Under the pieces are notes generated by a model. It made no database searches. It saw nothing but the letters and a program-made list of their open reading frames with translations, and was not told where the DNA came from. From Calditrichota bacterium (GTDB taxonomy: Bacteria; Calditrichota; Calditrichia; RBG-13-44-9; J042), in contig JAADJD010000027.1 of the NCBI GenBank assembly GCA_013150955.1, forward strand, positions 1-64,000: 64,000 nt of DNA, read 5' to 3'. Position 1 is the stretch's first letter. Each line of letters starts with the position of its first letter. Positions 29,976 through 34,065 of this stretch are shown here, piece by piece. The position numbers and the translations under genes are program-made.

Positions 29976-30171
29976 CAACGATGGTTGAGGGAAACGTTTC
30001 GACAGGGGGATGGGCTATCGGGCGGATAAAGGAGCAGGACAAACCGCACCATCCTGTGGCAGCATTCAGCCAGTGCAGGAAGTTCATCCTGGTTGACATT
30101 CAATGCCCCAGCGGTTATATTTTCCAGTTGATAATCGGATTCGAAAGAACATTTCGGTAGAGGAGGTTACC

Positions 30172-32016
30172 TTGAGAAAATCACCCATGCGGTTCACCCT
30201 GTTGTGGATTTTTATTTTTACATCCATTGCCTTTACCCAACCATCCGAAGATGCCCTGTTTCAACAGGGATTGTCTGCGTATCAGAAAAAGGATTATGCC
30301 AGAGCACAAACCCTGTTTTTTAAGCAGCTTCAATCCTTTCCACGAGGCCGTCTGGTGACCGCGGGCAAGCTGATGCTGGCAAAAAGTTATTACAAATTGG
30401 GGGATTACAATGCGGTGACCATTCTGTGCCGGGATTTCTTCAAACGCTATCCCGAAAGTCAGTACCTGGACGATATGCACCATTTATTGGGCAATACCCA
30501 CTTCCGGCAGGGGAAGTACGTACCCGCCATCGAGGAATGGTTCTGGGTCGTGGAAAATGGCACCGATGTACGGTTGAAAAAAATTGCTGCTCGATACATT
30601 TATCAGACGGCCAGTCGTTATCTGAGTGAGCCGGAATTGCAAACCCTGCAGCGGCGGTATCGCTCGGGCGTGTTGAATGGATTGTTAACGCTGCTGGAAG
30701 CCCGTCAGCTGCTGGAACAGGGACGGCGCGATCGGGCCGTGGAATTGCTGAACAAGTTCCTGCAGGAACAGCCCAATCATATATATGCGGATCAGGCCCG
30801 GCTGTTGTTGCAGTTTCAACAGAAACCGGTATCGGGGAATCCCACCATCGTTTACCTGAAGTCCATCTTCCCGGACGAAGAACCCGTTAGCGAAGCCATT
30901 GAGCTGGGGATGCGCTATGCGCTGCAGGAGTTTAAAGAACGCAAGAAAGCCGGAGGGGTGGATTTCGTGTCCATCCCGGTTGGCGAAAGTGTATTGAACA
31001 CCTTACAGGCTGCTCAACAGGGCGTCAGCAATAATAACACCCTGGCCCTGGTAGGGCCACTGGATACCGATCAGTGTGCTGCGGTGGCGCTGTTTTCTCA
31101 CTATGAGCAGATTCCATATGTCGTTCCTACCAGTGCGGCGGTGGGTTTCACCGAAATTAGCGAGTTTGCCTTCCAGTTGAATCCCGATGCCGAGACCAAA
31201 GGCCGGTTTCTGGGGAATTATGCCACCCGGGAGATGGGACTGAAAACCCTGGCAATTCTGGCGCCCGTCAGCGAGTACGGAGAAAGTTTTGTGCACAGTT
31301 TTATTGAGGCAGTTCAGGCCAACCAGGCCGAAGTGGTGACCACTCAGTGGTATTACGAGGACACCCAGGATTTCACCCGCCAGTTTCGGGCCATTCGAAA
31401 AAAGGGATTTTTTGTTTTTTATCGAGATTCCATTCGGCAGGTAGATTCGACCCTCTCGGATGAGGCCATCCAGAAAGGTTTCCGGGAGTGGATGGATGAA
31501 AAATTTTCCGCCAAAAAATTTGGCGCCAAGGTGGATTCCACGCAGATCCCATCCACCGGGATAGATGGTTTGCTAATCATCACCTCTCCCGATCTGATTC
31601 CTATTATTGCCTCACAATTTGCGTTTCACAACATCCAGTGTACCCTGCTGGGTAACGAAGGGTGGAATCATCTGGAGGCGTTGCAGAAAAATAAGGACTA
31701 TCTGCCGGATCTGGTGTTCATCAGTGCGGCGTATTACGATCCACAGTCCTGGGAATATCGCCAGTTTGTGACCCGCTTCCGAAGCCGGATGAAAACCACG
31801 CCGGAACTCTTTCACATGCTGGGTTACGATCTGATGACCTGGATGCTGGAGAAATACCGGCCGGCCATCACCCGGCAGGAATTTGCCTCTCGCCTTACCA
31901 ATCCCGGGAAATACCAGGGCATTGTGGAAAACATTGAGTTTCGGGAAAAGCCCAGAATTAACAGCCATCTTTTTGTGCTGCGGTTCAAGCTGGGCCAGTT
32001 GTTGAAGGTGAAATAA
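30172..32016 (+). CDS. LpoA-like protein: TPR region plus type-1 periplasmic-binding domain
   Basis: 614 residues from a TTG start at 30172, five bases after AGGAGG; an upstream ATG at 30103 lacks a site. A signal peptide covers residues 1-25 (to FTQ). TPR-like helices span residues 25-220 (DALFQQGLSAYQKKDYARA, KSYYKLGDYNAVTIL). A periplasmic-binding-protein type 1 domain spans about 235-605 (VGPLDTDQCAAVALFSHY, PYVVPTSAAVGF, TLAILAPVSEYGESF). The same domain order occurs in LpoA, the outer-membrane activator of penicillin-binding protein 1A, though a nutrient-sensing role is equally possible. No lipobox was found, unlike LpoA. Just downstream, 12 bp away, is the SatD-like gene. Confidence 0.8.
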   Translation: MRKSPMRFTLLWIFIFTSIAFTQPSEDALFQQGLSAYQKKDYARAQTLFFKQLQSFPRGRLVTAGKLMLAKSYYKLGDYNAVTILCRDFFKRYPESQYLDDMHHLLGNTHFRQGKYVPAIEEWFWVVENGTDVRLKKIAARYIYQTASRYLSEPELQTLQRRYRSGVLNGLLTLLEARQLLEQGRRDRAVELLNKFLQEQPNHIYADQARLLLQFQQKPVSGNPTIVYLKSIFPDEEPVSEAIELGMRYALQEFKERKKAGGVDFVSIPVGESVLNTLQAAQQGVSNNNTLALVGPLDTDQCAAVALFSHYEQIPYVVPTSAAVGFTEISEFAFQLNPDAETKGRFLGNYATREMGLKTLAILAPVSEYGESFVHSFIEAVQANQAEVVTTQWYYEDTQDFTRQFRAIRKKGFFVFYRDSIRQVDSTLSDEAIQKGFREWMDEKFSAKKFGAKVDSTQIPSTGIDGLLIITSPDLIPIIASQFAFHNIQCTLLGNEGWNHLEALQKNKDYLPDLVFISAAYYDPQSWEYRQFVTRFRSRMKTTPELFHMLGYDLMTWMLEKYRPAITRQEFASRLTNPGKYQGIVENIEFREKPRINSHLFVLRFKLGQLLKVK

Positions 32017-32028
32017 ACGGCTGCCGGG

Positions 32029-32682
32029 ATGAACACGCTGCAACTACACAGCTACTACCTGGCCATCATCGGGGATATTGTGCGTTCCCGGGAAATTGAA
32101 AACCGAAAGGCCTTCCAGCGGCAATTTCATCGCGTTATGGCGGAATTGAATCAGCAATTTCAATCGGAAATTGTGTCCCCGTTTACCGTTACCCTGGGGG
32201 ACGAGTTTCAGGCATTATTGCATCGCGCCGATGCGCTGTTTGAAATTTATCGGTTTCTGCACCAGCAGTTACATCCCCGGCAGCTGGTGATTGGTGTGGG
32301 GGTGGGCGAGATCGAGACCGAAATCAATCGGGAATCGTCCATAGGAATGGATGGCCCCTGTTTGCGGCTGGCCCGCGAAGAAATTGAGGCCGCCAAGCGT
32401 CAGCCCCCCCGATTGCGATTTAACGTTCAGGGATTGGAAGTGCCCGTTTTAAATGTGCTGATGCAGCACATCGAACGGCTGGAGGCAAAACGCACGCCGC
32501 GTCAGCGGGAAATTGTGGCGGTCTATCGGAACGTTCGACATCAGGAAACCGTCGCCCGGCAGCTGGGCATCTCCCAGGCAGCCGTTAGCCAGGCGCTGGA
32601 AAACGCCCATTATTTTCTGGTGGAGGAAAGTCAGGCGGCCATCGTGCAATTTCTGAATCAGTTTATAAAACCCATTGTATAA
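32029..32682 (+). CDS. SatD-family protein with C-terminal helix-turn-helix
   Basis: 217 residues. The N-terminus YYLAIIGDIVRSREIENR is the SatD-family opening, followed by VTLGDEFQALLHRADALFEIYR and GVGVGEIETEI. The C-terminal part (about 155-205) is an HTH: RTPRQREIVAVYRNVRHQET, then RQLGISQAAVSQALENAHY, with a clear recognition-helix pattern. SatD proteins are poorly understood; their genes often stand next to DUF3307 membrane proteins, as here. The HTH suggests regulation, and three regularly spaced palindromes follow the stop codon, before the DUF3307-like gene. The start lies 13 bases after the preceding stop codon. Confidence 0.83.
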   Translation: MNTLQLHSYYLAIIGDIVRSREIENRKAFQRQFHRVMAELNQQFQSEIVSPFTVTLGDEFQALLHRADALFEIYRFLHQQLHPRQLVIGVGVGEIETEINRESSIGMDGPCLRLAREEIEAAKRQPPRLRFNVQGLEVPVLNVLMQHIERLEAKRTPRQREIVAVYRNVRHQETVARQLGISQAAVSQALENAHYFLVEESQAAIVQFLNQFIKPIV

Positions 32683-32758
32683 GCGATATGGCTTATATGT
32701 GTTGTGCATAAGTAATATTGCTTATATGTTCCCTTTATAAGGTGAATCGCTTATATGG
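32678..32758 (+). promoter_or_regulatory. Three operator-like palindromes at exact 29-bp spacing
   Basis: ATAAG-N8-CTTAT occurs at 32679-32696, 32708-32725 and 32737-32754, starting every 29 bases; each is followed by ATG or ATGG, giving the shared core GCTTATATG. The first is extended to a 20-bp palindrome (TATAAGC/GCTTATA) and overlaps the SatD stop codon. The 29-bp period is close to three DNA turns. This looks like an array of sites for one dimeric regulator, plausibly the SatD HTH protein, controlling the downstream DUF3307-like gene. Confidence 0.78.
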
Positions 32759-33028: not shown

Positions 33029-33793
33029 ATGTCCATGACGCCTCAGACCTGTCAATTGCTGGTGAGTGTACTGCTGGCTTATTCGGTGGCTTATTTCTGG
33101 GTTATCTTTCGTGGAAATCGTGTGCAGAAGCCATCGGATTGGCAGGATGCCTGGCGGAATGGATGGAAATTTTTGTTGCCGCATCTGGTATTGGCGATTG
33201 CCCTGCCAAATTGGACAGTGGCGGGATATCTTTTCGCCGTGACGGTTGCGGTTGTACTGATTGTTCGTTACACCCACTGGCTGGACATGCCGGCCAGCCC
33301 GCTGCAGTTTACAGGGGTACAACTGGTTGCTGCCATCCATATCGCGATAATGATCCATCTCCTTCAAGGGACTTCCAGTTCCTGGATACAGCAGTGGGGG
33401 GTCGGGCGTGGGGAATGGTTGCTTCCCCCGGGAATATTTTTCCTGGCGATGTGGTATTTTGTTGGGTTTCTCTGGATGGTCTGGGGTGGCACCGCCTTTG
33501 TTCGCGCGGTGCTGGCGCCTTTTTCCAGCGACCGGTCGGGGGCCATTAGCGGCGAGGAACTGCAGCGCGGCAAGGTCATTGGGAATCTGGAGCGTCTGCT
33601 CATCTACCTGCTGATTCAGATGAACATGCTGGGGTTAATTACCCTGACCGTGGGATTAAAGGCCGTGGCCCGTTTTAAGAAACTGGAAGAAAAAGATTTT
33701 GCAGAATATTTTTTGATCGGCACGTTGTCCAGTCTTTTATTTGCGGTATCGCTGGCACTGGTGATTAAATATCTGGCACGGTTTGTTTCATGA
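33029..33793 (+). CDS. DUF3307-like integral membrane protein
   Basis: 254 residues from the ATG at 33029, chosen because it starts just before the first hydrophobic segment; no good ribosome site is seen and a longer frame begins at 32912. About six or seven membrane segments. The C-terminal third (VIGNLERLLIYLLIQMNMLG, LKAVARFKKLEEKDFAEYFL, IGTLSSLLFAV) matches the conserved C-terminal part of DUF3307 proteins; the N-terminal part is more diverged. Members often sit next to SatD genes. The function is unknown. It overlaps the HNH gene by four bases (ATGA), so the two are translationally coupled. Confidence 0.7.
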   Translation: MSMTPQTCQLLVSVLLAYSVAYFWVIFRGNRVQKPSDWQDAWRNGWKFLLPHLVLAIALPNWTVAGYLFAVTVAVVLIVRYTHWLDMPASPLQFTGVQLVAAIHIAIMIHLLQGTSSSWIQQWGVGRGEWLLPPGIFFLAMWYFVGFLWMVWGGTAFVRAVLAPFSSDRSGAISGEELQRGKVIGNLERLLIYLLIQMNMLGLITLTVGLKAVARFKKLEEKDFAEYFLIGTLSSLLFAVSLALVIKYLARFVS

Positions 33794-34065
33794 GATGCGA
33801 ACTTTGTGAACGCGAGGTTTCCCGGGTTACCATTCATCATTTGATTCCCCGGCAGAAGAACGGTGGAAAAGGCCCCACGGCACGGATCTGTTCGGCCTGC
33901 CATCGGCAACTCCATCATATTTTTGAAAACACGACCCTGGCAAGGGAGTTGAATACACTGGAAAAAATCCGTCAGCATCCGGAGATGCAGCGATTTTTAA
34001 ACTGGGTGCGCAAGCAGGATCCGGATCGGCGGATACGGGTGCGTCGGAAAAAGCCGCGGATGTGA
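33790..34065 (+). CDS. HNH-type zinc nuclease-like protein (YisB-like)
   Basis: 91 residues. Zinc-binding cysteines CELC and CSAC frame the HNH core (TIHHLIPRQKNGG, then RICSACHRQLHHIFEN). The layout matches small stand-alone HNH proteins of the YisB type, which are widespread and mostly uncharacterised; catalytic activity is plausible from the HH and ACH motifs but untested. It is the third member of a satD / DUF3307 / HNH group with a 4-base overlap. The rest is basic (RRIRVRRKKPRM), suggesting nucleic-acid binding. Confidence 0.82.
   Translation: MRCELCEREVSRVTIHHLIPRQKNGGKGPTARICSACHRQLHHIFENTTLARELNTLEKIRQHPEMQRFLNWVRKQDPDRRIRVRRKKPRM

Follow-up and report, generated by a model that had tools for sequence, protein, structure and literature searches.

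A fixed-pitch palindrome array as the probable SatD operator beside a DUF3307-type membrane protein gene in bacteria and archaea

The SatD family of Pfam (PF16264) is named after satD of the sat operon of Streptococcus mutans. In the literature that we found, the family is annotated with 'secretion and acid tolerance', and an operator, regulation by this family or a cyclase fold are not described there. A search of the non-subscription literature, to which the original sat operon studies do not belong, returned nothing joining SatD to DUF3307 or citing PF16264; DUF3307 itself appeared there in a single paper, on a phage. An earlier note on the DNA studied here knew of no described operator array for this gene pair, and regulation of the pair is indeed undescribed in the searchable literature. 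In S. pyogenes, satD was classified as an 'essential accessory gene', being essential in every strain tested and carried by about 71% of genomes (PMC11323703). An S. suis study gives satD as a 'DNA-binding protein' and includes it among sRNA targets (PMC12005413). The system proposed below resembles autoregulated toxin-antitoxin systems and ligand-responsive multi-operator repressors in having a small HTH regulator, a multi-palindrome operator over the promoter and a linked, potentially harmful partner. SatD differs from these in its protein family, in its palm-type sensor domain and in the fixed 28–29 bp array found in two domains of life.

We analyzed a stretch of 64,000 nucleotides from a Calditrichota bacterium, referred to as the window (Table 1). 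Its satD product is a member of the Pfam SatD family (E 2.8e-34; 119.1 bits versus a curated cut-off of 29) and shares the kind of HTH, the partner and the array geometry with streptococcal members. The C-terminal HTH claimed in the earlier note was identified as sigma70_r4-like (residues 156–193). Three exact ATAAG-N8-CTTAT palindromes, each followed by ATG, occur at a period of 29 + 29 bp, exactly as had been read from the sequence, and the overlap of the array with the satD stop codon was verified as well.

Table 1. Positions of the genes and putative operator units at the satD locus of the window.
Feature	Position	Strand	Remarks
satD	32029..32682	+	217 aa; palm ~5-137, HTH ~156-193, recognition helix 183-192
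Putative operator unit 1 TATAAGCGATATGGCTTATA	32678..32697	.	palindrome 32679-32696; overlaps satD stop TAA 32680-32682
Putative operator unit 2 CATAAGTAATATTGCTTATA	32707..32726	.	palindrome 32708-32725; same-period arrays in G001, G002, G003
Putative operator unit 3 TATAAGGTGAATCGCTTATA	32736..32755	.	palindrome 32737-32754
DUF3307-type multi-helix membrane gene	33029..33793	+	254 aa; start 33029 or 33035; probable array target
HNH/HlpB-like gene	33790..34065	+	PF01844; NCBIfam HlpB-like E 6.6e-28, below cut-off

The membrane protein encoded downstream of the array had been labeled DUF3307-like. The label is justified by C-terminal homology and gene position, not by a match to the DUF3307 model (PF11750): the window protein had no Pfam or NCBIfam match of its own, and no Pfam family was found at E values up to 1. 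Its C-terminal module matched a profile of satD partners with an E value of 1.7e-29, this profile consisting of 50 sequences from many phyla with the window protein among them. The C-terminal half also aligns with DUF3307-bearing satD partners elsewhere, and the module is characterized by the motif GxxIGxLER ... AxKxxARF ... FAEYxLIGTLxS. A genome scan by SatD alignment yielded 80 loci, 77 of them usable; by profile search, the module is encoded directly 3' of satD in 73 of these 77, and one of the four misses is a contig end. DUF3307 is matched by the N-terminal half of the partners in Firmicutes, haloarchaea, and Eisenbacteria. The window protein thus shares with DUF3307 proteins the C-terminal module and the position beside satD, whereas the Calditrichota partners tested differ in an N-terminal half that gave no match to the DUF3307 Pfam model. 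The structural model of the membrane protein had a pLDDT of 80, and a search of solved structures with this model gave nothing above Z 6 and no convincing match. As noted for the partner protein of the streptococcal locus L131, DUF3307 is also found in phages (phrog_2470, a 'moron' membrane protein), which hints at mobile relatives of the partner.

The earlier note had further proposed satD, the membrane gene and an overlapping HNH gene as a self-contained module and candidate new system. The HNH gene (PF01844) and its overlap with the membrane gene, which amounts to 4 bp, are real. However, the gene occurs only in the window and in two genomes of the same family (G001 and G002) and is absent from the third (G003) and from the other related loci scanned. 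HNH was therefore rejected as a third module member and is regarded as a neighbor only. What is supported is a regulated module of satD and the DUF3307-like gene, and this satD/DUF3307-type pair is deeply conserved and widespread rather than new to the window genome. The gene following HNH is 5'-nucleotidase-like. The gene directly 5' of satD (30103–32016) encodes BamD/TPR-like repeats fused to a periplasmic-binding (LivJ/ANF-receptor) domain, and in the window family satD apparently belongs to the operon of this fusion gene, with a gap of 12 bp here and an overlap in G002 and G003. Assignment to a defense system was rejected, as neither SatD nor the membrane protein of the window matched anything in PADLOC, which shows only their absence from the PADLOC library. 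A mobile or phage origin was likewise rejected: no SatD relative was found on viral contigs, and a plasmid search gave only 9 distant relatives.

We performed pattern searches throughout the 4,068,269-bp genome. Exact ATAAG-N8-CTTAT occurs in four copies, three of which are the window array; the fourth is a single copy elsewhere (G000:C35:27542-27559, L001). A two-unit pattern with up to three mismatches matched the window array only, and controls gave 0 matches. Single palindromes with up to two mismatches occur 16 times in the window versus 17 expected by chance, indicating that the evidence for the array lies in its three exact, evenly spaced copies. The family's four genomes all have the order satD, palindrome array, membrane gene: besides the window, G003 has three units at 29 + 29 bp, the third with two mismatches, and G002 and G001 have two units each at 29 bp. 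The distance from the array to the start of the membrane gene is about 270 bp in the window as opposed to about 40 bp in G001. Among 40 genomes of the class, the exact two-unit pattern gave 22 matches, 19 of them at satD, with the remaining three at the level of the reversed-pattern control. Unlike in the window, the array in the class relatives is located upstream of satD; the apparent position of satD in the operon of the upstream gene may explain why it has no array of its own in the window family. The window genome also encodes a second, distant SatD-like paralog (G000:C3:7130-7735, L055) with an altered HTH (GVTPQAIGDIL) and without a membrane partner. It lies beside other genes, recurs with similar neighbors elsewhere in the class and represents a separate regulator; such orphan paralogs were considered as further array owners and dismissed, as no array was found.

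Arrays are present at homologous loci in related genomes, where the earlier note had suggested looking and where their absence would have counted against it. Array-type palindromes precede the satD/DUF3307-type pair in Calditrichota, Chloroflexi, Firmicutes, Gammaproteobacteria, Eisenbacteria, Bacteroidota/Ignavibacteria, Verrucomicrobiota, and haloarchaea. An array with a period of 28 or 29 bp was detected within 160 bp upstream of satD at 42 of the 77 loci (z at least 5.2), compared to 0–4 loci for other periods and 0–1 for dinucleotide shuffles; the loci are related, and shared ancestry inflates this and all other locus counts. With a stricter detector, the best spacing was 28–29 bp at 22 loci and double this distance at several more, as opposed to a best pair at 28–29 bp in 2 of 436 control upstream regions. 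We then predicted that loci without an upstream array would, like the window, carry it in the gap between satD and its partner. This was the case in 12 of the 14 loci with such a gap, among them Bacillus, Clostridium, Pelosinus, Sporomusa, Maledivibacter, and Chloroflexi; two of these loci come from close relatives of the window. Upstream arrays have a period of 28 bp in 16 cases, 29 bp in 25 and 30–31 bp in 3 (search range 26–32), and gap arrays one of 28 bp in 7 and 29 bp in 5. About 30% of the satD loci had no array above threshold. As the array precedes the membrane gene in both layouts, whether located upstream of satD or between the genes, the membrane gene is likely the essential target and autoregulation of satD optional. 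In two haloarchaeal loci (L108 and L116), the units form two pairs, each spaced at 29 bp and separated by about 76 bp, which points to either two promoters or a looped complex.

The array can be placed relative to the promoter in streptococci. Twenty satD genes from 20 Streptococcus genomes have two to four units, and neighboring units are spaced by exactly 28 bp in 36 cases; the remaining spacings comprise one across a skipped middle unit (56) and three that involve weak matches outside the array (17, 18, and 21). In 18 of the 20 arrays, a TATAAT motif occurs inside the last unit, just 5' of the ribosome-binding site. The other units hence lie upstream of the transcript, which favors repression and disfavors an RNA element. 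Of 118 Streptococcus genomes, 53 carry satD and 49 carry DUF3307 (over cut-off). DUF3307 was never seen alone, as satD accompanies it in all 49 (Fisher p 6.5e-29, without phylogenetic correction). Four genomes have kept satD and the array while the partner is gone, indicating that satD is not merely the antidote of its partner. In several genomes, the partner is broken beside an intact satD, e.g., by a frameshift in G120. Interrupted DUF3307 genes next to satD were seen in G120, G141, G200, G206, G112, and L173; G112 is the only genome with satD in two pieces, and its partner frame is short too. That DUF3307 never occurs without satD and that satD is reported as essential are both consistent with a repressor keeping a harmful partner in check, although in S. 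pyogenes essentiality could have other causes.

We consider it likely that the array is the SatD operator, that SatD represses the DUF3307-type membrane gene until a nucleotide-type signal induces it, and that the partner is harmful if unrestrained. SatD dimers would bind each palindrome via the C-terminal HTH, and adjacent dimers, 28–29 bp apart, would probably touch via their N-terminal cyclase-like domains, resulting in cooperative binding. Bound SatD would shut off the membrane gene and, where the array is located upstream of satD, satD as well. The inducer would probably be a nucleotide or metal-nucleotide that alters the dimer contacts, and the membrane protein would probably do harm once released from control. 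Alternatively, SatD might bind the array and activate its partner, which we regard as unlikely. Activation would be consistent with the window, where a sigma70-like consensus site was sought around the array and none was found, and with the far-upstream position of the first units in the two-pair arrays. However, a promoter-like site overlaps the array in 18 of the 23 loci having such a site, and the streptococcal -10 box lies inside a unit.

As judged from an AlphaFold2 model (pLDDT 95, pTM 0.90), the N-terminal domain of SatD is a class III nucleotidyl-cyclase-like palm fold. Foldseek matched it to class III adenylyl/guanylyl cyclases, GGDEF domains, GTP cyclohydrolase III, Cas10, and the mCpol protein OptS (E ~1e-4 to 1e-3). 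By VIA-align, the palm gave Z scores of 10–11.7 overall, with adenylyl cyclases at 10–11 and GTP cyclohydrolase III as best match (Z 11.7, rmsd 2.4 over 116 residues). An alignment of 78 SatD sequences revealed I14, D16, S20, R26, T55, G57, D58, E59, Q61, G93, D108, G109, A115, and R116 as invariant. SatD thus shares its fold with the class III cyclase, GGDEF and Cas10-mCpol palms, and judging by motif and fold, its invariant D16 and GDEF (D58/E59) would occupy the metal-site positions customary in these palms. It differs from them in the fusion of the palm to an HTH, and neither the lysine nor the VNxAAR motif of active cyclases is evident in SatD. In the modeled fold, the invariant palm residues suggest a functional nucleotide/metal site that serves in sensing or in catalysis, and the invariance of D16, GDEFQ 57–61, D108-G109, and A115-R116 makes a nucleotide or metal-nucleotide the probable inducing signal. 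In a further variant, distinctly unlikely in our estimate, SatD would be an active nucleotide-making or -hydrolysing palm enzyme whose product both releases SatD from the operator array and acts on the DUF3307 protein; this would constitute a one-operon nucleotide-signaling module of bacteria and archaea with a logic comparable to that of mCpol/OptS systems.

The half-sites differ between groups. They are of the ATAAG or TAAC type in Calditrichota, TTAACC/TCAACC in gammaproteobacteria, some Chloroflexi and Ignavibacteria, GTTCGC/GTTCGG in haloarchaea, TTAGCC in Eisenbacteria, and TGTCC/TTTCC in streptococci. We compared half-site profiles of 54 arrays with the corresponding SatD sequences while controlling for N-terminal-domain identity. 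Half-site similarity followed recognition-helix similarity (partial Mantel r = 0.405, permutation p = 0.0002, N = 54); joint inheritance of satD, operator and partner inflates any such covariation, although identity of the N-domain is controlled for in the partial test. The best-correlating 11-residue segments of SatD start at residues 178–181, in the recognition helix (0.41–0.43), and the next one outside the HTH reached 0.30. The TAA-type sites are separated by residue 188 alone: with Q188, the half-site is TAAG in 14 cases and TAAC in 1, and with K or R188 it is TAAC in 8, TAAA in 3 and TAAG in 0, counts that stem from related loci and are not independent events. A Bacillus locus far from Calditrichota (L068; K188, TATAAC) obeys the same rule. 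This covariation points to SatD itself as the very probable binder, and together with the conservation of arrays at related satD loci the sequence comparisons support the earlier proposal of an operator for the SatD-like protein. An array belonging to another regulator, with SatD as a mere neighbor, would agree with the lack of a detectable array at some satD loci, yet we find it quite improbable: no other part of SatD is tracked by the half-sites as closely as the recognition helix, the arrays accompany the pair across phyla and archaea in two positions, and no array was found at related SatD paralogs that lack the membrane partner.

The window array region folds better than shuffled sequences (z -3.1), with units 1 and 3 paired, as would be expected if the palindromes acted in RNA as attenuator, riboswitch-like element or processing hairpins. 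Such folding is expected of any palindrome set, however, and the units 5' of the transcript in streptococci, together with a near-invariant 28/29-bp period that suits a DNA-bound protein better and an Rfam search of the region without a match, render this reading very improbable. A parS- or iteron-like partition or replication site, which multi-copy fixed-period palindromes beside an HTH protein gene might recall, is scarcely credible, since wherever the array occurs it is promoter-proximal to the same membrane gene, plasmid-borne relatives of SatD are few and distant, and no NTPase partner was located beside satD in the loci read.

Repression by SatD through the array would give an uncharacterized family of bacteria and archaea a likely function class together with its DNA site, recognition code and target, and the array makes the uncharacterized satD/membrane-protein gene pair testable. 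As a regulator, a cyclase-like sensor joined to an HTH that acts on a fixed-pitch operator would be of unusual design. Restraint of a linked membrane protein would provide a simple reason why satD is both essential and accessory in S. pyogenes.
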